Shown here: piece by piece, positions 29,606-49,526 of the stretch | Position numbering within the stretch: position 1 is the stretch's first letter | How the letters are laid out: the number at the start of each line of letters is the position of its first letter | From: Rudaea cellulosilytica DSM 22992 | GTDB lineage: Bacteria; Pseudomonadota; Gammaproteobacteria; Xanthomonadales; Rhodanobacteraceae | DNA: 64,000 nucleotides | Reading direction: 5' to 3' | Assembly: GCF_000378125.1 (NCBI RefSeq) | Contig: NZ_KB899241.1 | Location: forward strand, 1,277,652 to 1,341,651 | Translations under genes and position numbers: made by a program | Notes under the pieces: model-generated | Told to the model about the DNA's origin: nothing | Seen by the model: the letters and a program-made list of their open reading frames with translations, nothing else | Database searches by the model: none

Positions 29606-29650
29606 TGAAAACGTTTACATTCCGCCGAAGAGACGGTGTAAACGTTCATT
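29606..29650 (+). promoter_or_regulatory. lacI promoter with two LacI-type operators
   Basis: Operator 1 is TGAAAACGTTTACA (29606-29619), 13 of 14 to the palindrome TGTAAACGTTTACA. Operator 2 is TGTAAACGTTCATT (29637-29650), 11 of 14. Their centres are 31 bp apart, about three helical turns. A -35-like TTGCAA (29593-29598), 17 bp and TACATT (29616-29621) place operator 1 across the spacer and -10, which predicts autorepression. Confidence 0.75.
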
Positions 29651-29711
29651 AAAACCGCAAGCATGCGTGTCGCATCGCGGGCGTATGCATTGCGCGGGAG
29701 GGCGTGAAGGC

Positions 29712-30743
29712 ATGGCGGTAACCATACGGGATGTCGCACGCGAGGCACGGGTTTCCGTGGCGTCGGTGTCGCGCGCCCTCAACGGTTCTCCCGCGGTCAC
29801 CGATGAGACGCGCCAGCGCATCGCCAGCATCGCCGCGCGCCTGCGCTATGTGCCGCACAGCGCGGCGCGTAGCCTGATCACCAAGCGCACCCAAACCGTC
29901 GGTGCACTGCTGCCCGATCTGTACGGCGAATTCTTCTCCGAGCTGATCCGCGGCATCGACCTTGCTGCGCGGTCGAAAGGATTGCATCTGCTCGTTTCCT
30001 CCTCGCATGGCGATACTAACGAGGCCGCTGCGGCGCTGCGTGCAATGCAGGGCCGTGTCGATGGCATGCTGATCCTGTCGCCGCACGTCGATGCCGCCTT
30101 CCTGCGCGCTAATCTGCCCGAGGCCGTTCCTGCAGTGCTGCTCAACAGCGCACTCAAAGGAGCCCAGCACGACGTGCTCAATATCGACAACTACGGTGGC
30201 GCCTACGCGATGACGCGGCACCTGCTCGACGCAGGTCATGCCAGCGTCGCCTTCATCGGCGGCCCAGAGGACAACTTCGACGCCCAGCAACGCGAGCGCG
30301 GCTACCGCGAGGCGATGGCTGCATTCGCGCCGAAGGCGGCGGTGAAGGTGGCGACCGGCGATTTCGGCGAGGAGTCCGGTTACCGTGCAGGTCGCGCATT
30401 CGCGAAGAGTGCCGACAGGCCTCGCGCGGTCTTCGCTGCGAACGACATGATGGCGGTCGGTTGCCTGCGCGCGTTCGCAGAGAGCGGCCTGCGCGTGCCC
30501 GACGACGTCGCGCTGGCCGGTTTCGACGACATCCCTATCGCACGTTATGTCACTCCGTCGCTGACCACAGTGCACGTGCGCATCGCCGACCTCGGACGCA
30601 GCGCGCTCGAGCGCCTCGCCACGGCTATCGAAAAACCCGGCCGTGCGCTTCACGGCGCAGCGCCGATGCTTGCCTGCGAGGTTGTCGTGCGCGCGAGCAG
30701 TGGCGGCAAGACTAGCGGGAGGACAACAGCGAAGCGCGCCTGA
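29712..30743 (+). CDS. LacI-family transcriptional regulator
   Basis: The protein has 343 residues. The N-terminal helix-turn-helix reads TIRDVAREARVSVASVSRAL, followed by the hinge helix (VPHSAARSLITKRTQTVGALL). The rest is the periplasmic-binding-protein-like effector domain with DGMLILSPHVD, IGGPEDNFDAQQRERGYREA (split across 190-215) and ANDMMAVGCLRAFAESGLRVPDDVALAGFDDIP at about 240-273. I start at ATG 29712 because the HTH begins there. It probably binds a sugar and controls the TonB-receptor, halogenase and GH144 genes through TGTAAACGTTTACA sites, including two at its own promoter. Confidence 0.94.
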   Translation: MAVTIRDVAREARVSVASVSRALNGSPAVTDETRQRIASIAARLRYVPHSAARSLITKRTQTVGALLPDLYGEFFSELIRGIDLAARSKGLHLLVSSSHGDTNEAAAALRAMQGRVDGMLILSPHVDAAFLRANLPEAVPAVLLNSALKGAQHDVLNIDNYGGAYAMTRHLLDAGHASVAFIGGPEDNFDAQQRERGYREAMAAFAPKAAVKVATGDFGEESGYRAGRAFAKSADRPRAVFAANDMMAVGCLRAFAESGLRVPDDVALAGFDDIPIARYVTPSLTTVHVRIADLGRSALERLATAIEKPGRALHGAAPMLACEVVVRASSGGKTSGRTTAKRA

Positions 30744-30826
30744 GCGCGCGCCCGGAGTTAACGAGCGGACCACAAAAAACGAACCACAAAATCCACGTAC
30801 AACAACGTTTCCCTTGGGAGGAGAAC

Positions 30827-33800
30827 ATGAGAAAGCCGCTGCCCTTTAAGAAGAAAATTCTTGCCTCGCTGATTCGTACCGCCGTAGTCGCCACCGTGGC
30901 GATGCCGGCGCTGAGTTGGGCGCAAACGTCCGATGCAAATCTGCGTGGCAAGGCTGCGCCGAACATGCAGATCACGGCGAAAAACATCGCCACAGGCGCG
31001 CGCCGTGTCACGATGAGCGGCGCCGACGGAGGCTATGCACTTGTCGCTTTGCCACCCGGTACCTATCAGGTTGACGCAGGGCCTGGTACGGAGAAGACGA
31101 TCACATTGAGCGTGGCGTCCACCGCAACCTTGGATTTCACCGCGCCAGCAGCGACTGCGAGTTCAGCAGGGGCCGCGACGTTGGAAGGCATCACGGTGAC
31201 GGGCATCGCGCTTGCCGAAGTGAAGACCTCCGAAGTCGGCAACACGATATCTCTGCACCAGATCGAAACCATCCCGCAAGTTTCGCGCAACTTCCTTGAG
31301 TTCGCCGACACCGTCCCGGGCATGGTGTTCATCAGCCAGAACGGTAAAACCTCGATCCAGAGCGGCGGGCAGAACAACAGCGCCACCAACGTCTATATCG
31401 ACGGCATCGGGCAGAAGAACTACATTCAACGTGGCGGCATCGTCGGCCAAGCCGGGCCACAAGGCCAAAGCGGCGACTTGGGCAACCCGTTCCCGCAGCT
31501 CGCGATCGGCGAATACAAGGTCATCACGTCCAACTACAAGGCCGAATACGACCAGATTTCGAGCGCCGCCATCGTTGCGCAAACCAAGTCGGGCACCAAT
31601 GAATTTCATGGTGAAGTTTTCGGCACCACGACCAACGAAAGCTTGCGCTCGACGACACCCGCCGAACAAGTGGCGGGCAAAAAAACGCCGTCCAGCGACA
31701 ATGAATACGGTTTTGCGGTGGGCGGCCCCATCATCACGGACGCGTTGCATTTTTTCTTCACTTACGAAGGAAAGGACATCTCGCAGCCCACAGCGGTCGT
31801 TCCGCCGGCGATTGCCGCCAATGGTGCGCCTGTAAACACGACCGCTTTGTTGCCGGCCAGCGTGGCGGCGCAATACGGCCCGGCGTCGCAACCGTTCCAT
31901 GAAAATCTGTATTTCGGCAAGATCGATTGGGAGCTCTCAGATCGTGATCGCATCGATCTCGATGGAAGCCTTCGCCGAGAAACGCAAACTGTAGGCGCTA
32001 CAGAACAAGTTGCTGCGTCGGCTGCGTTTCATTACAAGAACGACGTCACGCGTTCGAGTGTGCGCTGGCAGCATTCTGCCGATGCCTGGACGAATGAATT
32101 GACCATTAGCTACGAAGATGCCAAATCGCTGCCGACGGCGCCTTCGCAAGGCGCCTATGCTGAGGTATACACGTGGCAGGGTACTGGCAGCAACAATCAG
32201 AACTTGATAACAATCAATGGGCAAGATCCGCGGAGCTATTTTAATTCCGAACAGAAAGGCACCGCCATACAAGATGACTTGACCTTCAACAGCTTCAATT
32301 TTTACGGTGATCACGTCATCAAGGTCGGATTCAAATACAAGGACGTCAAGCTGACCAATGCCGACGCGACCGCCGGAAACCCGGAATACTATTATGCGGT
32401 CACCGACAGCGGGACTTCGGCAACCCCTTACCAAGTCGTTTTTGCCAATCCGGTGGCCGGACTGAGTCCGCAGGTCACTTCAAAAGACAAACAAATCGGC
32501 GCGTATATCCAGGACGATTGGGCTGTCAACGAGCATCTCACCCTGAACCTCGGCCTGCGTACGGATTACGAGTCCTCGCCGACTTATCAGGACTGGGTGA
32601 CACCCGCCAGCGTGGTCGCAGCGTTCAACGCGCCGTATCCGACGAATAACAATGGAAATCCACAGCCCACCCCGGGCGAAACACTTGCGCAGGCCTATGC
32701 GCTCGGCGGCGTCAATATCAACAACTACCTCAGCAACGGCCACAATCGCAAGGCGTTCAAGAACGAATGGCAGCCGCGTCTCGGTTTCTCCTATGACCTC
32801 GATGCCGACGAACAGCACGTCATTTTCGGTGGCATCGGGCGCGCTTACGACCGTCAGTTGTTCAATACCTTGTCGCTGGAGAACAGCAAGTTTTCGCTCG
32901 CCGAGCCGACATTGGCTTTCCAGAATCCGCAAGCAATCGGCAATTGCGGACCGACTTCACCGGTCACCAACACCTGCGTGCCGTGGGATCCGAAGTATCT
33001 GAACGTGAATAATTTGTACGCCGCGGCGAATATCGGTGGCGAAATTAACATGTTGAACAACAATTTGAAGGCGCCGTATTCGGATCAGTTCAGCCTCGGC
33101 ATGCGCAACAAGATCGGCGACTGGAATACCAGCATCGGGCTTGCGCGAATCCTGAGCTATGACGGCATCATCGGGCAGCTCGGCAATCGTTATGCCAATG
33201 GCGCCTTCTACAACACCGTCGGCGGCAACCAGTGGGGTACCTCAGGCCCGCCAGGCTTCAACAGCAATTTCGTGATTTTCGACAACGGTGTGGAATCTAA
33301 AACCACGCAACTGCTGGTGTCGGTTGAGAAGCCCTACACCAAGGAAAGCGGTTGGTATGCGAATATCTCGTATACCTATACCGACGCGAAGCAGAACCGC
33401 CTCGTCACCGACGGCTATGCTTTCGATTTACCGAGCATCAAAGACTATCCGTTCACGGATTCCGACCAGGTGGCCAAACATCGTTTGGTTGCTGTCGGCT
33501 CCTACGATATTCCGTGGGATATAACACTGACCGGCAAACTGGTGCTTGAGGCAGGACGGCCATTTACGGAAATTACCTGCGGTGACGGCAATGCGAACGG
33601 CTACGGCGGCCCATGCTATCCAACGACGGCCGTACCTTCTGGTAAGAAATTCCTGTTCGGTGGGGATATCTACACGTATCGCGAATTCGATCTCGCAGCA
33701 TCCAAGACCTTTGACCTGACTCACGGCATGGGTTTGCAGTTGCGTCTGGATGCAATCAATCTGCTCAACTACAAGAACTTGTCGGATCCCATTTGGCTCG

Positions 33801-33895
33801 GTTCGGGTAGTAGTCTGCGAGTTGGCTTCGACCCACACGGAAATATCTACAGCGTGCCGCGTACATTCCGTTTCACGATGCGTTATACGTTCTAA
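30827..33895 (+). CDS. TonB-dependent receptor (Oar-like, large)
   Basis: The protein has 1022 residues. A signal peptide (ending ALSWA, about 32) is followed by a carboxypeptidase-regulatory-like beta-sandwich (about 36-98; GGYALVALPPGTYQVDAGPG), a plug domain (about 115-260; ETIPQVSRNFLEFADTVPGM, SATNVYIDGIGQKNY) and a large outer-membrane barrel ending in RFTMRYTF with the terminal aromatic Phe. It would import a bulky ligand with TonB energy. A strong GGGAGGAG lies before the ATG. It follows lacI by 83 bp, which suggests carbohydrate as ligand. Confidence 0.93.
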   Translation: MRKPLPFKKKILASLIRTAVVATVAMPALSWAQTSDANLRGKAAPNMQITAKNIATGARRVTMSGADGGYALVALPPGTYQVDAGPGTEKTITLSVASTATLDFTAPAATASSAGAATLEGITVTGIALAEVKTSEVGNTISLHQIETIPQVSRNFLEFADTVPGMVFISQNGKTSIQSGGQNNSATNVYIDGIGQKNYIQRGGIVGQAGPQGQSGDLGNPFPQLAIGEYKVITSNYKAEYDQISSAAIVAQTKSGTNEFHGEVFGTTTNESLRSTTPAEQVAGKKTPSSDNEYGFAVGGPIITDALHFFFTYEGKDISQPTAVVPPAIAANGAPVNTTALLPASVAAQYGPASQPFHENLYFGKIDWELSDRDRIDLDGSLRRETQTVGATEQVAASAAFHYKNDVTRSSVRWQHSADAWTNELTISYEDAKSLPTAPSQGAYAEVYTWQGTGSNNQNLITINGQDPRSYFNSEQKGTAIQDDLTFNSFNFYGDHVIKVGFKYKDVKLTNADATAGNPEYYYAVTDSGTSATPYQVVFANPVAGLSPQVTSKDKQIGAYIQDDWAVNEHLTLNLGLRTDYESSPTYQDWVTPASVVAAFNAPYPTNNNGNPQPTPGETLAQAYALGGVNINNYLSNGHNRKAFKNEWQPRLGFSYDLDADEQHVIFGGIGRAYDRQLFNTLSLENSKFSLAEPTLAFQNPQAIGNCGPTSPVTNTCVPWDPKYLNVNNLYAAANIGGEINMLNNNLKAPYSDQFSLGMRNKIGDWNTSIGLARILSYDGIIGQLGNRYANGAFYNTVGGNQWGTSGPPGFNSNFVIFDNGVESKTTQLLVSVEKPYTKESGWYANISYTYTDAKQNRLVTDGYAFDLPSIKDYPFTDSDQVAKHRLVAVGSYDIPWDITLTGKLVLEAGRPFTEITCGDGNANGYGGPCYPTTAVPSGKKFLFGGDIYTYREFDLAASKTFDLTHGMGLQLRLDAINLLNYKNLSDPIWLGSGSSLRVGFDPHGNIYSVPRTFRFTMRYTF

Positions 33896-33920
33896 ACGAA
33901 AAGGGCATTTGCGTTGTTAC

Positions 33921-33990: not shown

Positions 33991-34674
33991 TTGGAACAGC
34001 AAAGCGAGTCAAGCGAGAATCCATTATTGATCTTGATTGCGCAGCAAAAGAAGCGGAACTTGAGCAGCACATTTCCACAAGCCAAAGGCTGGGTTCCGCC
34101 ACTCGCCCGCTACGATCTGTTTGCGACACGCATCTGGCAGTCGCGGCTGGTCCCTTTCTATAGCCAGTTGCCTAAGTGGGCCGAATTGATCTGCGCCATG
34201 CGCGCGGCGCACCCCGAAACAGGCGGGCGTACCAACCGCCGCGGCTGGAACAGCACGGAAATGTTCGTGCTTGAGCGTCCGGAGTTTGCCGACCTGAATT
34301 CGGCGGTGCGCGCTGGTTGCACGGCGGCTTTGCAGGACATGGGCATCGGCAATACCGTATTTCGATTGCAAAGCTGGATCAATCTGCACGACCGCGGCGG
34401 CTTCAATGTGTCGCACGTACATGAAGGCTCTTTGCTTTCGGGCAGCATCTACATACAGGTTCCTCCCGGTTCGGGCAGTTTCGTGTTGCGCGAACCGCGG
34501 CCCGGCGTCGTGCATGGCTTGCTCAAGGGTATGGTGCCCAATGGCCACAACGACATCCAACTTGTCCCTGAGCCGGGGTTACTGGTGATCTTTCCCTGTT
34601 GGCTTGAGCACTACGTGGAAGCGCACGAAAGCGACACGCCGCGCATTACCATCGCTTTCAACGTCAGTGGCTGA
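33991..34674 (+). CDS. 2OG-Fe(II) oxygenase (PF13759 type)
   Basis: The protein has up to 227 residues. The C-terminal half has the pattern of the putative 2OG-Fe(II) oxygenase family of PF13759: FRLQSWINLHDRGGFNVSHVHEG (His142, His144), SGSIYIQVPPGSGSFVLREPRP, IFPCWLEHYVEAH (His207) and RITIAFNVSG (Arg218, the 2OG-binding position). The reaction is unknown. The start is uncertain: TTG 33991 gives the full frame, and TTG 34027 is an alternative; no ATG is suitably placed. It lies between the receptor and halogenase 1, 56 bp before the latter. Confidence 0.8.
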   Translation: MEQQSESSENPLLILIAQQKKRNLSSTFPQAKGWVPPLARYDLFATRIWQSRLVPFYSQLPKWAELICAMRAAHPETGGRTNRRGWNSTEMFVLERPEFADLNSAVRAGCTAALQDMGIGNTVFRLQSWINLHDRGGFNVSHVHEGSLLSGSIYIQVPPGSGSFVLREPRPGVVHGLLKGMVPNGHNDIQLVPEPGLLVIFPCWLEHYVEAHESDTPRITIAFNVSG

Positions 34675-34730: not shown

Positions 34731-36254
34731 GTGGTTGAAAAATCCATCAAATATATTGTCATCGTCGGCGGCGGCACCGCCGGCTGGATGGCTGCCGCGG
34801 CGATGGCCAAGGTATTTGGGCGCGCGGTATCGATTCGTCTGGTCGAATCCGAGGAAATAGGCACGGTCGGCGTGGGTGAAGCCACGGTACCGGCGCTCGG
34901 CCATTTCAACCGGATGCTGGAAATCAACGAAGCCGAGTTCATGCGGCAAGTGCAGGGCACGTTCAAGCTCGGTATCGAGTTCGTCGATTGGGGTCGCATT
35001 GGCGATCGCTATATGCACGGCTTCGGCACGACGATCGGTGCCGATTTTGGCGGCCAGCCGTTTCACCAGTATTGGATCAAGGCGCGACAGGCGGGCCGTG
35101 CCAAGGATATCGGCGCCTATACCTTGCACACGATGGCGGGGCCGCTTGGCAAGTTCATGACCTCGGCGAGCGATGTGCCGGCCTCGTCGCCGCTCGCGGA
35201 CATCGCTTACGCTTATCACTTCGATGCCGGGTTGTACGCGCGCTATCTGCGTCGCTATGCAGAAAATCTCGGCGTGCGCCGTACCGAAGGCAAGGTCAAG
35301 CAGGTGATTCAACGACCGGACGATGGCTTCATCGACGCGGTCGTGATGGAAAATGGCGAGAAGATCAGCGGCGATCTGTTCATCGACTGCTCGGGCTTCC
35401 GCGGCCTCTTGATCGAGCAGACCCTGAAGGCCGGTTACGAGGACTGGTCGCACTGGCTGCCGTGCAACAGCGCCGTCGCCGCGCCGTGCGAGAACGTCGG
35501 TCCGCCGACGCCGTTCGTGCGTTGCACCGCGCGCGAGGCCGGATGGACCTGGCGCATTCCACTGCAGCATCGCACCGGCAACGGCTACGTCTATTCGAAC
35601 AAATACATCAGCGACGACGAGGCGGCGAATAATTTGCTCGGCTGGCTCGACGGGCGTGCGCTCGGCAACCCGCGCGTGTTGCGCTTCACGCCCGGTCGTC
35701 GCAACAAAGTGTGGGACAAAAACGTGGTTGCAATCGGATTGGCGAGCGGATTCCTCGAACCACTGGAGTCCACCAGCATTTATCTGATCCAGTCCGCAAT
35801 CAATCGCTTGCTTAGCCTGTTTCCCGATCGCGAGTTCGATCAATCGACGATCGATCGCTACAACGCGCAGGCGGCCTTCGAGATCGAGCGCATCCGCGAC
35901 TTCATCATCCTGCACTTCTGCGCGACCGAACGCAGCGACACGCCGTTCTGGGATTACTGCCGCACGATGAGCCTGCCCGAACCGCTCGCCAATACCATCC
36001 GCCTGTTCCGCGACACCGGTCGCTACTATCGCAACGCCGACGAACTGTTCGGCCAGTTGAGCTGGGTGCAGGTGATGGTCGGCCAGCGCATCGTGCCGAG
36101 AAAATATCATCCCATCGTGGATCGCATGAGCGACCAGGATTTGTACGAATTCGTCGGCAAGGTGGAACAGGTCATCAGAAGTTGCGTCGATGTCATGCCA
36201 TCGCATCAAGCGTTCATCGACAAATGGTGCAAGGCGCCGCCGATCGCGATGTAA
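34731..36254 (+). CDS. Flavin-dependent halogenase, paralogue 1
   Basis: The protein has 507 residues in the tryptophan-halogenase family (PF04820). The FAD-binding GGGTAGW is at 13-19. The catalytic Lys79 (GTFKLGIEF) and Glu346 (EPLESTSI) fall at the same numbers as in PrnA/RebH, and the halogenase signature WxWxIP is WTWRIP (272-277). It therefore looks catalytically intact; FADH2 would come from a separate flavin reductase not seen here. Relatives encoded beside TonB receptors in Brevundimonas (BrvH) and Xanthomonas have been reported to brominate indoles in vitro; their natural substrate is unknown. The start is GTG 34731 after GGAGAAGG. Confidence 0.9.
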   Translation: MVEKSIKYIVIVGGGTAGWMAAAAMAKVFGRAVSIRLVESEEIGTVGVGEATVPALGHFNRMLEINEAEFMRQVQGTFKLGIEFVDWGRIGDRYMHGFGTTIGADFGGQPFHQYWIKARQAGRAKDIGAYTLHTMAGPLGKFMTSASDVPASSPLADIAYAYHFDAGLYARYLRRYAENLGVRRTEGKVKQVIQRPDDGFIDAVVMENGEKISGDLFIDCSGFRGLLIEQTLKAGYEDWSHWLPCNSAVAAPCENVGPPTPFVRCTAREAGWTWRIPLQHRTGNGYVYSNKYISDDEAANNLLGWLDGRALGNPRVLRFTPGRRNKVWDKNVVAIGLASGFLEPLESTSIYLIQSAINRLLSLFPDREFDQSTIDRYNAQAAFEIERIRDFIILHFCATERSDTPFWDYCRTMSLPEPLANTIRLFRDTGRYYRNADELFGQLSWVQVMVGQRIVPRKYHPIVDRMSDQDLYEFVGKVEQVIRSCVDVMPSHQAFIDKWCKAPPIAM

Positions 36255-36290: not shown

Positions 36291-38549
36291 TCACTTCTGC
36301 GATTCCGCGCGCGTGGCCTCGTCGAGCTTCTTCAGCGCTGCCGTCGCTTCGGGATTCGACATGAACGTCTTCCACAGCAGGCCGCTGCGGTAGTTCTCGA
36401 CCATCACCACGATCGGCGCCTGGTTGAGTCCCATGTAGTGCGACGAGACCCAATGCAGCGTCGGGTTGTAATTGTCGCGCGGGCCATAGATGCCCCACAA
36501 CTCGGCGCCAAGATCGCGGTAATAGTGTTTGAACGCCGCCATCGACGCTTCCGGTGTGTACGGGAACGAAGCGAGCGCGCCCGTCAGCGTGATCGTGCCC
36601 TCGTCGTTGGCCTTGTCGGGCGCCGGCGTCGTGTAACCGTTCGGGCCGAAGCTCGCGGTCAGGCCCCAGGCGTCCGCGCCATAGCCTTGATAATGCTTCG
36701 GATTGTCCATGCACCACGCGCGATTGATCAGCGCGATATTGCGATTATTGTCGAAATACGAATTTGTATACTTGTCCTGTATGAGATGCGGATCGAAGCC
36801 CAGGAACGAATAGTGCGTGAAGAATAGCGGGCCGCCGCTGCCGACGCCGACGTCGAGCTTGATGTCGTAGTACGTCTTTTCGTTCTTGTAGTGATTGCCA
36901 TCGGGACTGCCCGACCATCCCGCACGGTATTCCAGCGCACGCGCGCTCTGGCTCGCCCACCCGGAGTAGTACATCGACGCCGGCACCGAATGCGTCGGCG
37001 AGCCGATTGCGAGCAGATAGGCGATCAACGACTCGTTGAAGCCGATCAGCGGATGATGGATCTGGTAGCTCCACTGCGGCGACCAGTGCCAGTACAAAAA
37101 TGCGCTGTCCGGCTTGTCGCGATACCAGTTCCACTCGACGCCTTCCCACAGTTTGCTAATGCGCTGATGCAGCGCCTGCTCGCGCGCATCCGTGCCGTTG
37201 AAATATTGCCGCGCAGTCAACAGCCCCTGAATCATGAACGAGGTTTCGATGATGTCGCCGCCGTTGTCGAGCATGCCGAACAGCGGCATCGTTTCGCCCG
37301 TGGCATCGTTCATGTAGTGCGACCATGCGCCGTGATATTTCGGCGCTTTCTCAAGGAAGCTCACGATCTTTTCCAGCCGCTCGCGGCCCTGATCGCGGGT
37401 GATGAAATGCCGCTCGACGCCGACCAGCACGGCCATGACTCCGAAGCCGCTCGCGCCCATAGCGACGATGCGGTCGTCGCCCGGTAGGTTCTCGAACGCC
37501 ATGCCTGAATTCGGCGCCGCGGCTTCCCAGTAATAATGGAACGCGGCTTCCTGCAGCATCGTGAGCAACTCGTCGTCGTTCATTTCGCGCGTGGCCGCGC
37601 TGACGACGGCGGACGGCGCCGAAACGCGATTCGCCGCATCGGCGCTGGCGATTTTGTATTTCGCCTTTGCGTTCGCGCGGCCGATGAAATCGGAATAACG
37701 GTGAGTGCCGGGAAGTTGAATTCCGATCGGCTCGAACGTTTCGCCGTCGAGCGCACGATAGATCACGAAATGGTCGAAGCCCTCGGGTTCCTGCGCCTGC
37801 CAGGTCAGCACGACGTGCCGATCGTAACCCTTTGCCTCGACGTTTTCGGGCGCAGCGAGCACGGGCGCAGCAGCGAGCTGCGCATCGTCGTCGACGCGTA
37901 CATCGTCGACGATCAGAACGTGCCTTTTCCCGTCCGCGCGGCCCTGCATCAAGATCACGTTTTGCAGGCGCTCGGGATGGAACGAATACACCGATGCCGA
38001 CTTGAGCTCGAGCATTGGAATGCGCACCTGCGTCCAGCGGTTCGCCGGCAGGTCTGCGCCGATATATTTCGCCAGCGCAACGGTTTCGGTGAAGCTGCCC
38101 GGAAACGTGGCGACCTGCAGGCTATCGCGCGCGTCCGAAAGCATCAGGTTCGGCAGATCGGCCGCGGCGATCGGCTCGGGCGAATAGATCCAAAAGTATA
38201 ATTGTCTACCGGAGAGTTCCGGATAGCGGTTCGGGAAGTTTGCGACGTGGATTTCTGCGTCCCACGAGCCGTTCGGCTTGGACTCCCACGCCACACGCAG
38301 AGCATTGGGCGGGGTGCGGAAAATTTTCGACTCGACCGGCAGCCTGTAGTCGATGTTTTCGAGCATTGAAGGCATCGTCGAGACCGCTCCGCTGTGCCAA
38401 TACAGCTTGAGCTGCGCGCTGTTGTCGAATACGACGTGGCGATAGTAAGCCGTCTGCGCGAACGCGACCGGCGCGGCAAACGCGGCGGCGAGAATCGCCC
38501 ATGCAGCGCGACGACGCGCAATGCGCATCATGTGGTATCGAAGATGCAT
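36291..38549 (-). CDS. Secreted GH144-type glycosidase with FN3 and N-terminal sandwich
   Basis: The protein has 752 residues with a signal peptide (ending PVAFAQ, about 32). An N-terminal beta-sandwich (about 33-235), possibly carbohydrate-binding, is followed by a fibronectin type III domain (about 240-325) and the PF10091 glycoamylase domain (about 335-750; [83 protein letters not shown]). PF10091 is now family GH144, whose characterised members cut beta-1,2-glucan, so the old name glucoamylase misleads. ATG 38549 has GAAGGGAGGGAG upstream; the frame reaches 38567 by a TTG. It is divergent from the PhyH gene across an operator. Confidence 0.85.
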
Positions 38550-38643: not shown

Positions 38644-38699
38644 AGGCTGCCAAATATATGGCTTTCTGCGGCCGATGAGTAGTGTCCCGAGGAGCTGGT

Positions 38700-41298: not shown

Positions 41299-42834
41299 GT
41301 GAGTCTGAGCAAGCCGTTCCACCGCCTGCGTGTAAACGTTTTCAGCTTCCTCCTCGTGGTCGCCGCGGGAGCGTCGACTCCTCTGTTTGCGAAAGCCCCG
41401 TCTGCGCCTGCGGTCGGCGGCGCGCCGATCACCACGTTCCAGTCGCTGCCGAAAGAGCAGCAGGCGATGCTCGACGAGCTGGAGAAGCGCACGTTCGATT
41501 TCTTCATCGCCAGCGCGAATCCCGAAAACGGCCAGGTGCCCGATCACTGGGCGCCGGGGCACGAGAACGATCCCTCGTTCTTCTCCTCGGTCGCCGCGGT
41601 CGGCTTCGGCCTGACCGCCTACGGCATCGGTGATGAGCGCGGCTGGATCAAGCGCGACGAAGCGGTGAAACGCACGCTCGCGACGCTGCGCTTCTTCGCC
41701 AACGCCAAGCAGAACGAAGAGAAGGACGCGAGCGGCGCGCATGGGTTCTTCTACCACTTTCTCGACATGCACAGCGGCGCGCGGTTCGGGCCGGAGCCGT
41801 GGGTCGAATTGTCGTCGGTAGATACGGCGTGGCTGCTTTACGGCGTGCTGTTCGCGCAGTCGTACTACGACAAAAACACGAAGGACGAGAAGGAGATCCG
41901 CCAGCTCGCCGACCAGATCTACCGCCGCGTCGACTGGAAATGGTTCAGCGACGGCAATCCGCTCGTACAGGGTGGCTGGACGCCCGAGAACGGCTTTGAC
42001 TACAACTATTATCGCGGCTTCAGCGAGGCGATCGGCCTGTACATCCTTGCACTCGGCTCGCCGACCTACGGCCTGGGGCCGGCGACATGGAGGCGCTGGA
42101 CGCAACCCAACGACAAGATCTGGGGTGAATTCCAGGGCCAGACCTATCTCGCTGGCAGCCCCTCGTTCTGGCACCAGTGGGCGCATTCTTGGGTCGATTT
42201 CCGCGGCATCCAGGACGAGTACATGCGCGGCAAGGGCATCGACTATTTCACCAACAGCCAGCGCGCCGCGCTCGCACAACGCGAATACGCGATCCACAAC
42301 CCGCTGCAGTGGAAGGATTACGACGGCAATGTCTGGGGCCTGACCGCGAGCAACGGTCCGCGCGGCCACACGCAGCCGGGCGAGCCCGATCGCTACAAGA
42401 ACGATTCGAAGCCATTCTACGGCTACATCGAGCGCGGCGCGGGCCTTTCGCGCGCGGCGGTCGACGACGGCACGATCGCGCCGACCGCGGCGGCGGCCTC
42501 GATCGCGTTCACGCCGCAGATCGTGGTCCCGGCCATCGCGGAAATGAAACAGCGTTATGGCGATGATCTCTACACGCCATACGGTTTCGTCGATGCGTTC
42601 AATCCGAGCTTCACCTTCACCGACCGTTCGGTGCGCACCGGTCGTGTCGTACCGGACAAGGGCTGGTTCGACAACCTGTATCTGGGCGTCGATCAAGGGC
42701 CGATCCTGCTCATGCTCGAAAACTACCGCAGCGGCTTCGTCTGGAAAACGATGCGCAAGAATCCGTATATTCGCGAGGGCCTGAAGCGCGCCGGATTCAG
42801 CGGGGGTTGGCTCGGTAAGTCCGTCGACAAATAA
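41299..42834 (+). CDS. Secreted GH144-type (PF10091) glycosidase
   Basis: The protein has 511 residues with a signal peptide (about 1-31, ending PLFA). The remainder is one PF10091/GH144 domain: EKRTFDFFIASANPENGQVPDHW (62-84), SSVAAVGFGLTAYGIG, SSVDTAWLLYGVLFAQSYY, DYNYYRGFSEAIGLYILALG, NVWGLTASNGPRGH, and DQGPILLMLENYRSGFVWK near the end. Characterised GH144 enzymes are endo-beta-1,2-glucanases, so a periplasmic or secreted beta-glucanase is likely. It starts at GTG 41299 without a clear Shine-Dalgarno. A LacI-type operator lies inside its signal-peptide codons. Confidence 0.87.
   Translation: MSLSKPFHRLRVNVFSFLLVVAAGASTPLFAKAPSAPAVGGAPITTFQSLPKEQQAMLDELEKRTFDFFIASANPENGQVPDHWAPGHENDPSFFSSVAAVGFGLTAYGIGDERGWIKRDEAVKRTLATLRFFANAKQNEEKDASGAHGFFYHFLDMHSGARFGPEPWVELSSVDTAWLLYGVLFAQSYYDKNTKDEKEIRQLADQIYRRVDWKWFSDGNPLVQGGWTPENGFDYNYYRGFSEAIGLYILALGSPTYGLGPATWRRWTQPNDKIWGEFQGQTYLAGSPSFWHQWAHSWVDFRGIQDEYMRGKGIDYFTNSQRAALAQREYAIHNPLQWKDYDGNVWGLTASNGPRGHTQPGEPDRYKNDSKPFYGYIERGAGLSRAAVDDGTIAPTAAAASIAFTPQIVVPAIAEMKQRYGDDLYTPYGFVDAFNPSFTFTDRSVRTGRVVPDKGWFDNLYLGVDQGPILLMLENYRSGFVWKTMRKNPYIREGLKRAGFSGGWLGKSVDK
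41331..41344. promoter_or_regulatory. LacI-type operator inside the GH144 start region
   Basis: TGTAAACGTTTTCA matches the locus palindrome at 13 of 14 positions. It lies 32 bp after the GTG start, within signal-peptide codons (RVNVFSF), so a bound repressor would act as a roadblock rather than at the promoter. Confidence 0.65.
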
Positions 42835-42877: not shown

Positions 42878-44164
42878 GTGTCGTCAGGTGGGATGATGGG
42901 ATTGGCGCGGATCGCGGCGTGGGCGACCATGTTCGCGCTCTGCGCCTGTGCGCCCGCCTCGAATGAGACGACGCTTAAGTTATGGGCTTTCGGTCCCGAG
43001 GGCGAGGCGGTCGGCAAGCTGCTGACCGAGTTCGAGCGCGCGCATCCGGGCGTGCGCGTTGAAGTGCAGAACATGCCGCTGACGGCGATGCACGAGAAGC
43101 TGCTGACCGCATTCGCGGGCGATGCGCTGCCCGACCTTTGCCAGCTCGGCAACACCTGGATCCCGGAGTTCGCCGTACTAGGCGCACTCGAGCCGTTGCA
43201 GGCCTATGTCGACCAGTCCAGCATCGTGCGCCGTGACGACTATTTCGCCGGCATCTGGGACACCAATGTCGTGAACGGTGCGCTGTATGGCGTGTCGTGG
43301 TATGTCGACACGCGCCTTTTGTTCTACCGCAAAGACCTGCTCGCCGCGGCTGGTTTCGACCACGCGCCGCGTGATTGGGACGAATGGCGGCGTGCAATGG
43401 CGGCGATCAAGAAGAACCAGGGCGCGGACAAGTACGCGATCTTCCTGCCGCTCAATGAGTTCGAGCCGCTGCTCAATCTCGCGATCCAGCAGAATGAACC
43501 CTTGCTGCTCGACGACGGCACGCGCGGCAATTTCGAAAGCGCCGGATTCCGCCGCGCGCTCGATTTCTATGTCGACGCGTTCCGCGAGAACTGGGCGCCG
43601 GCGATGAGCAACACCCAGATCGCCAACGTCTGGGACGAATTCGGCAAGGGCTACTTCGCGTTCTACATCACCGGGCCATGGAATATCGGCGAGTTCAAGC
43701 GGCGTTTGCCCGCCCGGTTGCAGGACAGTTGGAACACCGCACCGCTGCCTGGGGCGAACGGGCCGGGCGGCGGCGCGGCGGGCGGATCGAGCTTCGCGAT
43801 TTTTCGTGCGTCGAAAAACAAACGGCTCGCGTGGGAACTGGTCGAATTCCTTTCGCAGGTGAAGCAACAGCAGCGCTTCTACACGCTGACCGGCGACCTG
43901 CCCGCGCGGCGCAGTGCCTGGGACTTTGCCGAACTGGAGACTGACGAGTTCACCCATGCCTTCCGCGCCCAACTCGAGCTCGTCAAGCCGACGCCGAAGG
44001 TGCCCGAATGGGAGCGCATCGCGACCGAAATGCAGTTCGCCGCAGAGCGCATCGTGCGTGGCGGCGAATCCACGGAAGCGGCGCTGCGTGCGCTCGATGC
44101 AAAGGTCGACGAGGAGATCCTGGCCAAGCGACGCACGCTGCTCGCGCGCGGAGGGCAGCGATGA
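42878..44164 (+). CDS. ABC sugar importer, solute-binding lipoprotein
   Basis: The protein has 428 residues of the bacterial extracellular solute-binding family 1 (MalE-like). A lipobox-like sequence (FALCACAPAS, about 19-28) indicates a lipoprotein. The mature part begins TTLKLWAFGPEGEAVGKLL; also seen are LPDLCQLGNTWIPEFA, YGVSWYVDTRLLFYRKDLL and GKGYFAFYITGPWNIGEF. It should deliver an oligosaccharide to the two permeases encoded next. Start GTG 42878 has GGAGG 4 bp upstream. The last 4 bp overlap the first permease gene (ATGA). Confidence 0.92.
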   Translation: MSSGGMMGLARIAAWATMFALCACAPASNETTLKLWAFGPEGEAVGKLLTEFERAHPGVRVEVQNMPLTAMHEKLLTAFAGDALPDLCQLGNTWIPEFAVLGALEPLQAYVDQSSIVRRDDYFAGIWDTNVVNGALYGVSWYVDTRLLFYRKDLLAAAGFDHAPRDWDEWRRAMAAIKKNQGADKYAIFLPLNEFEPLLNLAIQQNEPLLLDDGTRGNFESAGFRRALDFYVDAFRENWAPAMSNTQIANVWDEFGKGYFAFYITGPWNIGEFKRRLPARLQDSWNTAPLPGANGPGGGAAGGSSFAIFRASKNKRLAWELVEFLSQVKQQQRFYTLTGDLPARRSAWDFAELETDEFTHAFRAQLELVKPTPKVPEWERIATEMQFAAERIVRGGESTEAALRALDAKVDEEILAKRRTLLARGGQR

Positions 44165-45042
44165 GAAGCGAGCGCGCCGCCTGGACCTTCGTCGCACCTG
44201 CGCTCGTCGTGCTCGGCGTGTTCCTTGTCCTGCCGGTCTGCGCCGCGCTGCTGCTGAGCTTCACCGACTTCGACATCTACGCGCTGGCGAATCTCGACAA
44301 CTTGCGCTTCATTGGCCTCGCAAACTATGTCGACGTGCTGCGCACGCCGCTGTTCTGGAAGGTATTGGCCAATACGGTCTGGTTCGTCGTGCTCGCGCTG
44401 CCGCTGTCTCTCGCGCTCTCGCTCGGTGCGGCCTTGCTGCTCAATTCGCCGCTCGCGCGCTTCAAGGGCCTGCATCGCACCGCGCTGTTCGCGCCCGTGG
44501 TGACGACCGTCGTCGCGGTCGCGATCATCTGGCGCTATCTGTTCCACACGCGTTACGGGCTGATCAACTATGCGCTCAGCCATCTCGGCATCGGTCCGAT
44601 CGACTGGCTTGGCGATCCGCACTGGGCGATGCCCGCGCTCGTGCTGTTCGCGGTGTGGAAGAACTTCGGCTACAACATGATCATCCTGCTCGCCGGGCTG
44701 CAGGCGATACCGCAGGATTTGTACGAGGCCGCGCGCATCGACGGCGCCTCGGCCTGGCGGCGCTTCTGGCACATCACCCTGCCGGGCCTGCGCCCCGTGC
44801 TCCTGCTCGTCGCGGTCATCACGATCGCCGGCTACTTCCAATTGTTCGCCGAGCCTTATGTGATGACGCGCGGCGATCCGCTGCAGTCGACCGTGAGCGT
44901 GCTGTACCTGATGTACGAGGAAGGCTTCAAATGGTGGAACCTCGGTCGCGCCTGCGCGATCGCCTTCCTCTTGTTTGCGTTGATCCTCGTCATCACGCGC
45001 GTGCTGTTGCGCTTCGCGCGTGCGAAGGACGAGCGCGCATGA
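44161..45042 (+). CDS. ABC sugar importer permease (MalF/UgpA-like)
   Basis: The protein has 293 residues and six predicted transmembrane helices. The EAA loop that contacts the ATPase is EAARIDGASAWRRFWHITLP (about 190-209). ATG 44161 overlaps the binding-protein stop by 4 bp; similarity starts at this ATG. It partners with the next permease. No gene for the ATP-binding subunit is present in this operon or elsewhere in the window, so a shared MsmX/UgpC-type ATPase is needed. Confidence 0.93.
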   Translation: MRSERAAWTFVAPALVVLGVFLVLPVCAALLLSFTDFDIYALANLDNLRFIGLANYVDVLRTPLFWKVLANTVWFVVLALPLSLALSLGAALLLNSPLARFKGLHRTALFAPVVTTVVAVAIIWRYLFHTRYGLINYALSHLGIGPIDWLGDPHWAMPALVLFAVWKNFGYNMIILLAGLQAIPQDLYEAARIDGASAWRRFWHITLPGLRPVLLLVAVITIAGYFQLFAEPYVMTRGDPLQSTVSVLYLMYEEGFKWWNLGRACAIAFLLFALILVITRVLLRFARAKDERA

Positions 45043-45860
45043 ATTCGCGCATGACGAAATGGATCGTCAACGGCCTGCTGGTCACCGGCAGCGTGGTCAC
45101 TCTGTTGCCACTCGCGTGGATGCTGTCGGCGTCGTTCATGCAGCCGGGCGAGGCGAGCCACGCGCCGCCGCCGCTGCTGCCGGCGCATGCGACACTCGCC
45201 AACTATCGCGAATTGTTTTTGCGCGCCGGCATGGGCCGCTACCTGCTCAACAGCTTCCTGGTCGCGGGCACGATCACGCTCGCCTCGCTTGCGTTCAATC
45301 TCAGTGCGGGCTACGCCTTCGCCAAGCTGCGCTTCGCCGGCCGCGAGCGGCTGTTCCAGCTCGTGCTCGCCGCACTGCTCGTGCCGCTACAGGTGGCGAT
45401 GATGCCGCTGTTCCTGCTGATGAAGTGGCTGCATCTGGTCAACAGCTATGGCGGCGTGATCGTGCCTGCGCTCGCGACCGCGCTCGGCATCTATCTCGTG
45501 CGCCAGTACGTGCGCTCGATTCCCGACGAGCTGATCGAGGCCGCGCGCATCGACGGTGCCGGCGAATGGACGATCTTCCTGCGCATCGTGCTGCCGCTGC
45601 TCAAGCCGATGAGCGTGACGCTCGCCGTGCTGACGTTCCTCGCGAGCTGGAACGATTTCATGTGGCCGCTGATTGTGCTCAGCGATCAGGCCTGGCAGAC
45701 CGCGCCGGTCGCGCTCGCCGGCCTTTCGCGCGAGCACGTGCAGGACAACGAACTGATGATGGCCGGTTCGGTCGTGACGATCCTGCCCGTGCTGCTGCTG
45801 TTCCTTTTGTTGCAGCGCCAGTATCTGCAAGGACTGTTACTTGGGAGCGTGAAGGGATGA
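45039..45860 (+). CDS. ABC sugar importer permease (MalG/UgpE-like)
   Basis: The protein has 273 residues and six predicted transmembrane helices. The EAA loop is EAARIDGAGEWTIFLRIVLP (about 168-187). Other landmarks are SAGYAFAKLRFAGRE, LVPLQVAMMPLFLLMKWL and FLASWNDFMWPLIVL. It overlaps its neighbours by 4 bp on each side, completing the second half of the transmembrane channel. Confidence 0.93.
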   Translation: MNSRMTKWIVNGLLVTGSVVTLLPLAWMLSASFMQPGEASHAPPPLLPAHATLANYRELFLRAGMGRYLLNSFLVAGTITLASLAFNLSAGYAFAKLRFAGRERLFQLVLAALLVPLQVAMMPLFLLMKWLHLVNSYGGVIVPALATALGIYLVRQYVRSIPDELIEAARIDGAGEWTIFLRIVLPLLKPMSVTLAVLTFLASWNDFMWPLIVLSDQAWQTAPVALAGLSREHVQDNELMMAGSVVTILPVLLLFLLLQRQYLQGLLLGSVKG

Positions 45861-46990
45861 AGTTTTTCCGCGGGGTGCTGCTGGCGTTGACGGCACTTGC
45901 TTCATACGCGCATGCCGAAACCAAGCCGGCAACCGAAATCGGCACGCTTGCCGGCGCGGCGTATCGCATCGATGTTCCGCCCGACTGGAATCGACGCGTA
46001 GTCGTGTTTTTTCACGGCACTTCGGAAACTCCGTTGCTGTATACGGCGGGCGAGCCGCTCTCGCCGATGTTCCGCCACATCCTGCAGCGCAAGTACGCGG
46101 TGATCCAATCCGGCTATTCGGCGGGCGGCTGGGCACTGGAGGAGGCCGAGAAGGACACCGAGCGCCTGCGCGGGCATTTCGCCGCGAGCCAAGGCAAGCC
46201 GGACCAGTTTCTCGTCATGGGCATGTCGATGGGCGGCGCGCTCGTGGCGATGACGATCGAGCGGCACGCCGACATCTATGCCGGCGCACTCTCGCTGTGC
46301 GGCGTGCTCGAACCGAGCGATGCCTTGTTTCAGCGCGATTTCGCGCTCGCCGCGGCGTTCGACTATTACTTCCCCGGCGTGCTGCCGGCGTTCGTGCCGG
46401 TGCCGGCGGACTATGTCGCCGACAAGCGGATGGTCGCGAAGATCACCGCCGCGCTCGCTTCGAAACCCGCGGCGGTGCAGGCGCTGTTGCGCTGGTACGG
46501 TACGGCAGATGCGAAGTCGCTGCCCGACGTGGTCGCCGATACGCTGACCGACTTCCGCGATCTGCAGCGTCGCGCCGGTGGCAACCCGCTCGGCAATGCC
46601 GACCTGATCTACGTGAACTCGGGTGACGATGCCGCGCTCAACGCCGGCGTGCGCCGCTATCGCGCGGATGCGCAGGCGGCGGCGTGGCTGGCGCGCTGGT
46701 ACACGCCGAGCGGCAAGCTCACGCGCCCATTGCTCGCCGTGCACGACATCGGCGATCCGCTCGTGCCCGCCGCCGGCGCATTTACCTATGCATTGACCGT
46801 GCAGCGCGCCGGCCATGCCGACAATTTCGTCCAGCAATACGTCGCCCGCGAAGGCCATTGCGTGTTCACGCCGGATGAGGTCGCACGCGCATTCGATCAA
46901 CTCGTCGACTGGGTCGATGCAGGCAAGCGGCCTGCACCGGGCGCCGTACCGGACCATCCTCGCATGCAAGCAAAAGAGACGACACGATGA
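45857..46990 (+). CDS. Exported alpha/beta hydrolase 1
   Basis: The protein has 377 residues with a signal peptide (about 1-20, ending AHA-ET). The fold is alpha/beta hydrolase: oxyanion-hole HG (53-54), nucleophile elbow GMSMG with Ser124, acid Asp in HDIGDPLVP and base His in AREGHCVF. It resembles poly-3-hydroxybutyrate-depolymerase/esterase-like proteins rather than any clear peptidase. Coupled by a 4-bp overlap to the sugar importer and to a paralogue downstream, it may remove ester groups from the imported glycan; that role is inferred from context only. Confidence 0.85.
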   Translation: MKFFRGVLLALTALASYAHAETKPATEIGTLAGAAYRIDVPPDWNRRVVVFFHGTSETPLLYTAGEPLSPMFRHILQRKYAVIQSGYSAGGWALEEAEKDTERLRGHFAASQGKPDQFLVMGMSMGGALVAMTIERHADIYAGALSLCGVLEPSDALFQRDFALAAAFDYYFPGVLPAFVPVPADYVADKRMVAKITAALASKPAAVQALLRWYGTADAKSLPDVVADTLTDFRDLQRRAGGNPLGNADLIYVNSGDDAALNAGVRRYRADAQAAAWLARWYTPSGKLTRPLLAVHDIGDPLVPAAGAFTYALTVQRAGHADNFVQQYVAREGHCVFTPDEVARAFDQLVDWVDAGKRPAPGAVPDHPRMQAKETTR

Positions 46991-48114
46991 GAAAAAGTGG
47001 AATTTTGCGCATCGTCGTCGTCGTGGCATGCCTCGCTTCGCAGGCGGCAGGCTGCGTCGACATGGCGCGCAAGGCAGCCGTGTTGCCGGTCAACATGACG
47101 GGTACGCGCGACGGCGCGGCGTATCGCATCGACATTCCTGCCAATTGGAACCACGAATTGATCGTCTACTACCATGGCTACCGGCATGAACCCGCCGCAT
47201 ATGCCAAGGGCAAGCGTATCTGGCCAGCGCTCGACGGACTCCTTGCCAAGGGTTATGCACTGATTCAGTCCGGCTATTCGCGCGGCGGCTGGGCGATCGA
47301 GCAGGCCTACGCAGAGACGGAAGCCCTGCGCCGCGAATTCGTCGCGACCTACGGCAAACCTGCGCGCACCTGGGTGATGGGCGAGTCTATGGGCGGCGCG
47401 CTGACCGCGTTCACGATCGAAACGCGACCGGAGACCTACAGCGGCGCGCTGGCGCTGTGCGGCGCGATCGAGCCGTCGAACCGCATTCTCGACAAGGCGT
47501 TCGCGATGCGCGCCGCATTCGACTATTACTTTCCCGACCTGCTCGGGCCGCTCGTGCCGGTACCGGACCCGCTGCCGGACTATGCCGACATGAAGAAGCG
47601 CATCGCCGATGCGCTCGCAGCCAAGCCTGCCGCGCGCGACGCCCTGCTGCGCCTGTATGGCGCGGCATCGGAGAAAAGTTTTCCGGACATACTCGCGTTC
47701 GTCACCCAGATCCTCGGTGAGTTGCAACGACGCACTCACGGCAATCCGTTCGGCAACGCCGATCTGATCTACTCGGGGTCGGGCGACGACTTCGCGCTCA
47801 ACGACGGCGTCAAGCGCTATCGCGCCGATGCGCCGGCGGCCGCGTACGTCGCACGCTGGTACACGCCAAGCGGCAAGCTGTTCAGACCCTTGCTCGCATT
47901 GCACGATACCGGCGATCCGCTCGTGCCCGCGGCGGGTGCCTTCGAATACGCGCTGACCGCGGAACGTGCCGGCCACGGCAAAAACTTCGTGCAGCAATAC
48001 ATCAATCGCGAAGGCCACTGCGTATTCGAGCCCGATGAAATCGCGCGCGCGTTCGGCGAACTCGTCGACTGGGTCGACACGGGCAAGCGGCCGCTGTCGG
48101 GCAGGCTGCCGTGA
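46987..48114 (+). CDS. Exported alpha/beta hydrolase 2 (paralogue)
   Basis: The protein has 375 residues and is a tandem paralogue of hydrolase 1, with the same order of motifs: YYHGYRHE (oxyanion hole), GESMGG (nucleophile Ser), HDTGDPLVP (acid) and NREGHCVF (base). The N-terminus (KSGILRIVVVVACLASQAAGC) ends in a possible lipobox AAGC, so it may be a lipoprotein, unlike paralogue 1. Shared segments such as RWYTPSGKL, AGAFxYALT and NFVQQYxxREGHCVF indicate duplication. It ends the five-gene coupled operon and converges on the GH1 gene 7 bp away. Confidence 0.85.
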   Translation: MRKSGILRIVVVVACLASQAAGCVDMARKAAVLPVNMTGTRDGAAYRIDIPANWNHELIVYYHGYRHEPAAYAKGKRIWPALDGLLAKGYALIQSGYSRGGWAIEQAYAETEALRREFVATYGKPARTWVMGESMGGALTAFTIETRPETYSGALALCGAIEPSNRILDKAFAMRAAFDYYFPDLLGPLVPVPDPLPDYADMKKRIADALAAKPAARDALLRLYGAASEKSFPDILAFVTQILGELQRRTHGNPFGNADLIYSGSGDDFALNDGVKRYRADAPAAAYVARWYTPSGKLFRPLLALHDTGDPLVPAAGAFEYALTAERAGHGKNFVQQYINREGHCVFEPDEIARAFGELVDWVDTGKRPLSGRLP

Positions 48115-48121
48115 TCCGGCA

Positions 48122-49483
48122 TCAGGCGTGGTTCAACACATCGCCGTTGCTTGCGATCACGTTCGCGTAGAGCTTGCCGCTGGCCTTGATCGTGCGCTGC
48201 TGCGTGGCAAAGTCCACGTGCACGATGCCGAAGCGTTTGGAGAAACCCAGCGACCATTCGAGGTTGTCGAGCAGCGACCAGGCCATGTAGCCACGCACGT
48301 CGCAGCCCTGCCCGATCGCGTCCGATACCGCGGCCAGATGTTTCCTGAAATAGTTCACGCGCAGCGGATCGTCGATCACGCCATCGTCGGCCTGAGGCGG
48401 GTCGTAGAACGCCGCGCCGTTTTCGGTGACGTAAACGGGCGGGTTGCCGTAGCGCTGCTTGATCCAGGTCAGCGTGTCGGTGAGGCCTTGCGCGAACACT
48501 TCCCATCCAGTCTCGGTGTAGGTCGCGTCCTGCTTGACCGACGCGACTCGCAACGGATAGTTGTTCGCATCGAAGCGGGTGACGTTGCGCGTGTAGTAGT
48601 TGACCCCGAGCCAGTCGATCGGCTGTTTGATCAGCGCGAGGTCGGCGGCGGGCCACGACGGCCACGCGTCGTCGAAGATGTCCTGCAGTTCGTCGGGATA
48701 AGCCCCGAGAAAAACCGGGTCGAGGTATTGCCGGTTCATGTAGGCGTCGGCGCGCTTCACCGCGGCGAGATCTTCCGCGCTCTGCGATGCCGCATACTTC
48801 GGCTCGATGTTGACGACGATGCCGATGCGGTGTTTGCCGTTTGCGCGATAGGCCTGCACGGCCGTGCCGTGCGCGCGCAGGAGATTGTGGCTCGCGATCG
48901 GCGCTTCGTACTTGCTGCGATGGCCCGGTGCGAGCGCGCCGTGCAGGTAGCCGCCGTCGGTGACGACCCAAGGCTCGTTCAACGTTGCCCATTGCTGCAC
49001 GCGGTCGTCGAGTTTGGCGTACATGATGTTGGCGTAGTCGGCGAACCAGCTCGCGACGTCGGGATTGAGCCAACCGCCACGATCGTCGAGCATGGCGGGC
49101 AGATCCCAATGGAACAGGGTCGGCAACGGCATGATGTCGTTGCGCAGCAGTTCGTCGACGAGGCGGCTGTAGAAATCCAGCCCCCTGTCGTTGACCCGGC
49201 CGCGCCCCTCGGGCAGCACGCGTGCCCAGGCGATGCTGAAACGATAGGCCTTGAGGCCCAGGTGCTTCATCAGCGCGACGTCGTCCTTCCAGCGTCGGTA
49301 GTGGTCGCAGGCGACGTCGCCTGTGTCGCCGTTCGCCATCATGCCCGGCGTGCGCGTGAAGCGCTGCCAGATGCTCGGTCCGGCGCCGTCGGCGAGCGGA
49401 GAGCCCTCGATTTGGTATGCACTCGTCGCCGCGCCCCAGAGAAAATCCGCGGGAAACTGCACGCGTTGCGATGTTCCGGACAT
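48122..49483 (-). CDS. GH1 beta-glucosidase
   Basis: The enzyme has 453 residues, a TIM barrel of family GH1. The acid/base is Glu170 (WATLNEPW) and the nucleophile Glu354 (VYVTENGAAF). PADFLWGAATSAYQIEG opens the domain and YMAWSLLDNLEWSLGFSKRFG is near the end. There is no signal peptide, so it acts in the cytoplasm, probably on beta-glucosides brought in by the ABC importer. I choose ATG 49483, since the operator at 49503-49516 and a TATCCT -10 lie just upstream; the frame extends to 49531 across them. Confidence 0.93.
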   Translation of the reverse strand: MSGTSQRVQFPADFLWGAATSAYQIEGSPLADGAGPSIWQRFTRTPGMMANGDTGDVACDHYRRWKDDVALMKHLGLKAYRFSIAWARVLPEGRGRVNDRGLDFYSRLVDELLRNDIMPLPTLFHWDLPAMLDDRGGWLNPDVASWFADYANIMYAKLDDRVQQWATLNEPWVVTDGGYLHGALAPGHRSKYEAPIASHNLLRAHGTAVQAYRANGKHRIGIVVNIEPKYAASQSAEDLAAVKRADAYMNRQYLDPVFLGAYPDELQDIFDDAWPSWPAADLALIKQPIDWLGVNYYTRNVTRFDANNYPLRVASVKQDATYTETGWEVFAQGLTDTLTWIKQRYGNPPVYVTENGAAFYDPPQADDGVIDDPLRVNYFRKHLAAVSDAIGQGCDVRGYMAWSLLDNLEWSLGFSKRFGIVHVDFATQQRTIKASGKLYANVIASNGDVLNHA

Positions 49484-49502
49484 TCCCTGCGTCTGCGCGG
49501 TG

Positions 49503-49526
49503 TGAAAACGATTACAGCGAGGATAG
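49503..49526 (-). promoter_or_regulatory. GH1 promoter with LacI-type operator
   Basis: TGAAAACGATTACA (49503-49516) matches the locus palindrome at 12 of 14 positions. On the minus strand a TATCCT (49521-49526) is a candidate -10 just upstream, so the operator covers the transcription start about 20 bp before the GH1 start codon. Confidence 0.65.

Follow-up and report, generated by a model that had tools for sequence, protein, structure and literature searches.

Gene content of the locus

The window analysed here is a 64,000-nucleotide stretch of Rudaea cellulosilytica DSM 22992 (contig NZ_KB899241.1, positions 1,277,652 to 1,341,651). Between its positions 29,606 and 49,516 it carries a cluster of glycoside hydrolase (GH), transport, halogenase and oxygenase genes that begins with a gene for a LacI-family regulator. 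The cluster belongs to a regulon that is real and conserved, wider than originally noted through a distant GH39 gene, and whose substrate is most likely beta-1,2-glucan, judging by the relatives of its proteins. The genes and predicted operators, in window coordinates, are the following.

29606..29619, unstranded: operator with 1 mismatch 5' of lacI (motif scans; site 5' of lacI in 50/54 related loci)
29637..29650, unstranded: second, half-conserved operator 5' of lacI (motif scan, 3 mismatches; the same-genus locus L095 has a pair of sites at similar positions)
29712..30743, plus strand: LacI-family regulator (PF00356; Peripla_BP_3, PF13377)
30827..33895, plus strand: TonB-dependent receptor, no plug domain match (PF25183, PF00593, PF13620)
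33991..34674, plus strand: 2-oxoglutarate (2OG)-Fe(II) oxygenase of the TIGR02466 family (PF13759; TIGR02466 above its cut-off)
34731..36254, plus strand: flavin-dependent halogenase hal1 (PF04820; 6Y1W Xcc4156, E=6e-166; catalytic Lys and Glu kept)
36291..38549, minus strand: GH144a, exo-sophorohydrolase-like (PF10091; 5Z06, E=4e-205 over residues 36-743)
38630..38643, unstranded: perfect operator between GH144a and PhyH (motif scans, 0 mismatches)
38682..39536, plus strand: PhyH-type 2OG-Fe(II) oxygenase (PF05721; HxD and distal His by inspection of the sequence)
39660..41174, plus strand: flavin-dependent halogenase hal2, orthologue of the L095 halogenase (PF04820; 87% to L095)
41299..42834, plus strand: GH144b, endo-beta-1,2-glucanase-like (PF10091; 8XUL XcSGL, E=9e-161; E243, F290 and Y376 present)
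41331..41344, unstranded: operator within the start of GH144b (motif scans, 1 mismatch; same place in loci L095 and L134)
42878..44164, plus strand: sugar-binding protein of an ATP-binding cassette (ABC) importer (PF01547; 3UOR, E=1e-157; Lin1841, E=3e-59)
44161..45042, plus strand: ABC permease 1 (PF00528)
45039..45860, plus strand: ABC permease 2 (PF00528, in the same frame of 43914-45857; start set by inspection of the sequence)
45857..46990, plus strand: alpha/beta hydrolase 1 (PF00326)
46987..48114, plus strand: alpha/beta hydrolase 2 (PF00326)
48122..49483, minus strand: GH1 beta-glucosidase (PF00232; TIGR03356 above its cut-off)
49503..49516, unstranded: operator 5' of GH1 (motif scans, 2 mismatches; at GH1 in 8/18 related loci)

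The regulator has both the helix-turn-helix (PF00356) and the sugar-binding domain (PF13377) of the LacI family. Receptor, regulator, inner-membrane transporter and hydrolases lie together, as in a TonB-dependent carbohydrate utilisation locus, and this association is conserved in related loci. The receptor has no match to the canonical plug domain PF07715. XCC2208 of Xanthomonas, likewise named as a receptor without a canonical plug (PMC1790865), is probably its counterpart, the link to XCC2207 being drawn from the numbering. The two alpha/beta hydrolases between the permeases and GH1 (45857-48114) are similar and in tandem; L095 has one homologue at the same place.

The operator motif in the window and the genome

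The original prediction reported five matches to a palindrome in this cluster, and all five were recovered. The window was scanned with TGTAAACGTTTACA, allowing up to three mismatches and using shuffled sequence as a control. Six matches were found against 0.39 expected, a number reached by none of 100 shuffles; the sixth (11672, 3 mismatches) is distant from the cluster. The prediction had also placed the matches at gene starts. This holds for lacI, where the sites at 29606 and 29637 lie 61-106 nt 5' of the ATG at 29712 (the 29637 copy has just one good half-site), for the divergent GH144a and PhyH genes, which have the 38630 site between them, and for GH1, where the 49503 site ends 19 nt ahead of the ATG at 49483. 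At GH144b the placement needs correcting: taking GTG 41299 as the start codon, the 41331 site is not 5' of the gene and covers codons 11-16 of its frame. L095 and L134 likewise have an operator at +32, so that either an operator just within GH144b or a wrongly set start appears to be common to the window and these two loci. The halogenase and oxygenase genes are on the same strand as the site-bearing genes with gaps of 43-124 nt, from which we infer that they share transcripts with them. A promoter and terminator scan gave 2 promoter-like matches compared with 4.1 in shuffles and added no information.

A genome-wide scan for the motif, as the prediction had proposed, gave a divided outcome. 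The loose palindrome with three mismatches was not enriched (49 matches versus 55 for the reversed control), and the tighter consensus TGWAAWCGWTTWCA was adopted for this reason, with the reversed motif again as control. The tight form has six exact sites in the genome and nine at up to one mismatch, versus one for the reversed control. Four exact sites lie in the cluster. Of the other two, one precedes the GH39 gene and one falls where two 3' ends converge; the motif is therefore not strictly limited to catabolic promoters. The last site (C4:334834-334847; L030:7835) separates pirin and cold-shock genes and has no evident promoter role. In a second species of the genus, a perfect palindrome is found at the same pirin/cold-shock place (L025:9174).

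Conservation of the regulon among relatives

GH144b homologues (E<=1e-60) are found in 202 of the 398 genomes of the order, the R. cellulosilytica genome included. Sixty neighbourhoods were chosen from the ranked list of these homologues, mostly the best matches, making a non-random sample that is biased to close relatives. The genes usually run from lacI through receptor, (halogenase) and GH144b to binding protein and permeases; lacI is present in 54 loci, the TonB receptor in 56, the binding protein in 54, a halogenase in 24 and GH1 (within range) in 18. An operator with at most one mismatch lies within 200 nt 5' of lacI in 50 of 54 loci, while each of seven control patterns scores 0/54. Over all 1,055,929 bases of the 60 loci there are 104 operator sites versus 0 or 1 per control. 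At GH144b and GH1, one-mismatch controls scored 0 for five patterns in an earlier count in which some loci were misoriented. Two-mismatch counts at these genes (22/60 and 10/18) were excluded as evidence because near-variant controls score up to 11 and 7. Across 69 family genomes, 89 exact operator sites (summed from the table) compare with one reversed-control match.

The window protein is one of eight LacI proteins of its genome, and its recognition helix, VSVASVSRALN, is distinct from those of the other seven. CcpA-like palindromes are associated with Ala in the second specificity position.

The exact site at GH39 (C1:54021) lies 85-99 nt 5' of the gene, which is about 1.25 Mb from the cluster. 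Homologues of this gene (E<=1e-100) occur in 99 of 233 genomes of the family. Among 30 such loci, including those of R. cellulosilytica and three same-genus genomes, an operator is present within 300 nt 5' of the gene in 28, 17 of them exact, and seven controls score 0/30. The gene is also linked to the cluster elsewhere: in L146 it lies between GH144b and the binding protein, and the acidobacterial contig L154 groups it with genes of both GH144 types, a receptor-like gene and a LacI gene. The conserved operator and the linkage in these two loci indicate that GH39 most likely belongs to the pathway. Thus, the regulon includes the cluster as predicted but stretches well past the range first given for it.

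A conserved palindromic operator of the form TGWAAWCGWTTWCA at lacI, the GH144 genes, GH1 and the unlinked GH39 gene is evident from sequence comparison. Site conservation in other genomes supports the original claim of a single LacI regulon over the cluster genes (lacI 50/54, GH39 28/30, controls 0). The same conservation is the argument against regarding the matches as products of chance or of unrelated regulators, an explanation that could draw on the loose palindrome, which is no more frequent than its control, and on the exact site at convergent 3' ends, and that is nonetheless highly improbable.

Substrate of the regulon

Both GH144 proteins contain PF10091 and have a characterised GH144 enzyme as nearest relative. 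GH144a matches the exo-sophorohydrolase BDI_3064 (5Z06) over nearly its full length (residues 36-743, E=4e-205), which we take to be the exo-type, sophorose-releasing GH144 of the literature. An exo-type GH144 that releases sophorose has been described (PMC12369401). In GH144a, the acid Glu, E506, is the clan residue that was inspected. GH144b is closest to XCC2207/XcSGL (8XUL, E=9e-161), a tested endo-beta-1,2-glucanase with narrow specificity for beta-1,2-glucans (PMC12102758). As read from the alignment, E243, F290 and Y376 of GH144b correspond to the clan-defining E239, F286 and Y367 of XcSGL; the 8XUL sequence has Gln at the first of these positions, which fits the E239Q mutant named in PMC12102758. 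Among solved relatives of the binding protein, 3UOR is best (E=1e-157) and Lin1841, which binds Sop3-5 (PMC12369401), is next (E=3e-59). Streptomyces griseus has a GH1 beta-glucosidase for sophoro-oligosaccharides (PMC12369401). The beta-1,2-glucan first suggested as a possible substrate is thus strengthened by three proteins, GH144a through BDI_3064, GH144b through XcSGL and the binding protein through Lin1841, though the last is nearer 3UOR.

With a probability of roughly 75%, the system is a LacI-repressed regulon that would scavenge beta-1,2-glucan, such as bacterial osmoregulated or cyclic glucans. Without inducer, LacI bound to the operators would block transcription. When beta-1,2-glucan is present, chains would be taken up by the TonB receptor and cut by the endo-acting GH144b, and the exo-acting GH144a would release sophorose. 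The ABC importer would carry oligosaccharides in, GH1 would turn them into glucose, and a sophoro-oligosaccharide would release LacI from its sites. The halogenase would be an accessory tied to one receptor clade and dispensable for catabolism.

Several findings weigh against this reading. 3UOR, the solved structure closest to the binding protein, is called a maltose-binding protein of Xanthomonas citri, which appears to be in tension with sophoro-oligosaccharide binding. The scanned open reading frames of the cluster yielded no ABC ATPase, the rest of the genome not having been searched for one. Operators with up to one mismatch occur at GH144b in just 16 of 60 loci and at GH1 in 8 of 18, and 29 of the 69 family genomes have no exact site. 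To these is added the exact site between convergent 3' ends. Finally, the palindrome alone does not identify the sugar, because a different LacI in genome G027 is found with the same palindrome beside genes that by eye are of xylose type.

Two of these points touch on observations in other loci. G027 belongs to another family of the order and has four perfect palindromes (L022, C27; 6679, 7765, 11935 and 19529) beside its LacI gene; the neighbours are a GH1 homologue and, by eye, PhyH-like, xylose isomerase and xylulokinase genes. An ATPase-like open reading frame, also read by eye, lies beside GH1 in L099, L105, L107 and L132.

The tension over 3UOR also bears on another proposal, that the substrate of the locus is some other glucoside, for example maltodextrins or a plant phenolic glucoside, and that the halogenases and oxygenases are core enzymes acting on an aglycone released by GH1. 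GH1 enzymes are broad beta-glucosidases, which would suit this proposal, but the presence of two GH144 enzymes with beta-1,2-glucan-specific relatives would not, and it is considered unlikely also on the distribution of the halogenases described below.

Elsewhere in the genome (C1:1026-1031 kb; L063:1-5096) there is a 2940-residue open frame with PF10091 and GH94 that resembles a cyclic beta-1,2-glucan synthase. The organism may therefore itself make the polymer that the regulon is predicted to degrade.

Halogenases

In a search with hal1, the closest solved structures are 6Y1W (Xcc4156), 9LUQ and 6FRL (BrvH). The flavin adenine dinucleotide motif GGGxAGW and the catalytic Lys and Glu are present in 28 of 28 aligned halogenases, hal1 and hal2 included. 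WxWxIP is present in 26 of 28 (WTWRIP in hal1), the exceptions being WQWRIA and WTWDIG. The native substrates of BrvH and the Xanthomonas halogenases are stated to be unknown, and a peptide has been proposed (PMC7336383). BrvH brominates free indole in vitro (PMC5945002), which would agree with an aglycone substrate under the different-glucoside proposal. Nothing that directly joins a halogenase with LacI, TonB or a polysaccharide was found in the open-access literature.

Halogenase genes are present in 24 of the 60 loci, where they lie 3' of the receptor and ahead of GH144b. A PF04820 search covered 15 genomes, of which ten have a halogenase-free locus. In five of these (G347, G023, G257, G325 and G035) no match exceeds 73 bits, compared with more than 400 for a full-length protein, and the locus is therefore maintained in the absence of any such halogenase. 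The remaining five (G200, G316, G136, G281 and G196) have a full-scoring halogenase elsewhere in the genome. Since 36 of 60 loci and at least five whole genomes lack it, the halogenase is accessory and not part of the core pathway. The prediction had listed the halogenases in the regulon without assigning them a role, and the same counts argue against a core role in the use of some other glucoside.

The 25 receptors that are linked to a halogenase, the window receptor among them, all belong to a single clade of 41, the other 16 members of which lack a halogenase; none of the 18 receptors outside this clade has one. This restriction and the gene position could suggest that the halogenase modifies aromatic residues of the TonB receptor or of another co-made peptide and so tunes uptake, in line with the peptide substrate proposed for BrvH and Xcc4156 (PMC7336383). 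The halogenase label requires 9 changes on the receptor tree compared with 19.2 in shuffles, yet 9 and 10 changes suffice on the LacI and GH144b trees (from slightly different row sets). The receptor therefore predicts the halogenase no better than the whole locus does, and was rejected as a special predictor. The trees do not distinguish an association with the receptor from one with the locus, and what stands is the restriction to one clade. In addition, in four close receptor pairs the partner without a halogenase has lost no Trp, which speaks against receptor Trp as the target. Modification of the receptor or a peptide is, on balance, quite unlikely.

Loci L097 and L098 (genomes G294 and G347) are near-identical (receptor 92%), one with and one without a halogenase, and form a natural control pair; the genome of L098 has no full-scoring halogenase. 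The R. cellulosilytica genome has a second set of LacI, halogenase, receptor-like and GH1 genes at C1:584-591 kb (L044:7242-14267) in which this operator is absent.

A broader proposal is put forward tentatively, at less than even odds. The conserved distant GH39 would have a beta-1,2-glucan-related activity new to GH39, and the Xcc4156/BrvH-type halogenase would be a facultative partner of one TonB receptor clade, its native substrate being made or taken up during beta-1,2-glucan use. If this is true, naturally occurring pairs of near-identical loci that differ in having the halogenase make its substrate findable.

Oxygenases and the window-specific block

Neither homologues of the 2OG oxygenases nor a separate GH144a gene were found in the 60 fetched stretches (E<=1e-6). 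The original prediction had included the two oxygenases in the regulon, with unknown role; with homologues in none of the sampled loci, they are placed outside its core. In 2OG-Fe(II) halogenases of the SyrB2 type, HxG or HxA replaces HxD. PhyH was considered as such a halogenase and rejected, as it has WHQD.

Compared with L095, lacI and hal2 (87% each) and the binding protein (84%) are close; GH144b is at 71% and the receptor at just 54%. GC at third codon positions is 0.68 for the receptor and 0.71-0.79 for the four genes that follow it, against 0.82-0.84 for hal2, GH144b and the binding protein. This block may have replaced the ancestral receptor, with the perfect operator at 38630 wiring it into the regulon. 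The 2OG oxygenases and GH144a seem to have been gained later, in this genome specifically, and placed under the same operator. GH144a relatives (E<=1e-60) occur in two other genomes among the 398 of the order, where they stand alone. No donor of the block was found; 16 genome-collection loci had no halogenase or PhyH homologue in the stretch examined, several of these contigs being short.

Relation to known systems

The sophoro-oligosaccharide clusters of Listeria innocua (lin1839-1841) and S. griseus (SGR_2423-2427) resemble the window in having a Lin1841-kind binding protein with ABC permeases and a beta-glucosidase (GH1 in S. griseus), and the S. griseus cluster includes a beta-1,2-glucanase (PMC12369401). 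The window differs in having GH144 in place of GH193 and adds a TonB receptor, a lacI gene with mapped predicted operators, GH39 in the regulon and accessory halogenases. The Xanthomonas sux locus, with the LacI-type SuxR, likewise combines repressor, TonB receptor, inner-membrane transporter and hydrolase; it is a sucrose locus and is without GH144 or halogenase (PMC1790865). Apart from 9LUQ, the indole halogenases Xcc4156 and BrvH are the nearest solved relatives of hal1, and the catalytic Lys and Glu are kept in 28/28 aligned sequences. For both, the native substrate is described as unknown (PMC7336383), whereas the window halogenase genes sit in a defined sugar regulon. Among open-access papers, none was found that describes the locus as a beta-1,2-glucan regulon.

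A locus whose GH144b homologues extend to 202 of 398 genomes of the order thus gains proposals for its substrate, for its regulator, with operators mapped, and for the genes under control, and a role is predicted for a GH39 subfamily. Halogenases whose native substrates are stated to be unknown are placed in a sugar regulon with natural halogenase-free controls, which makes their function testable.

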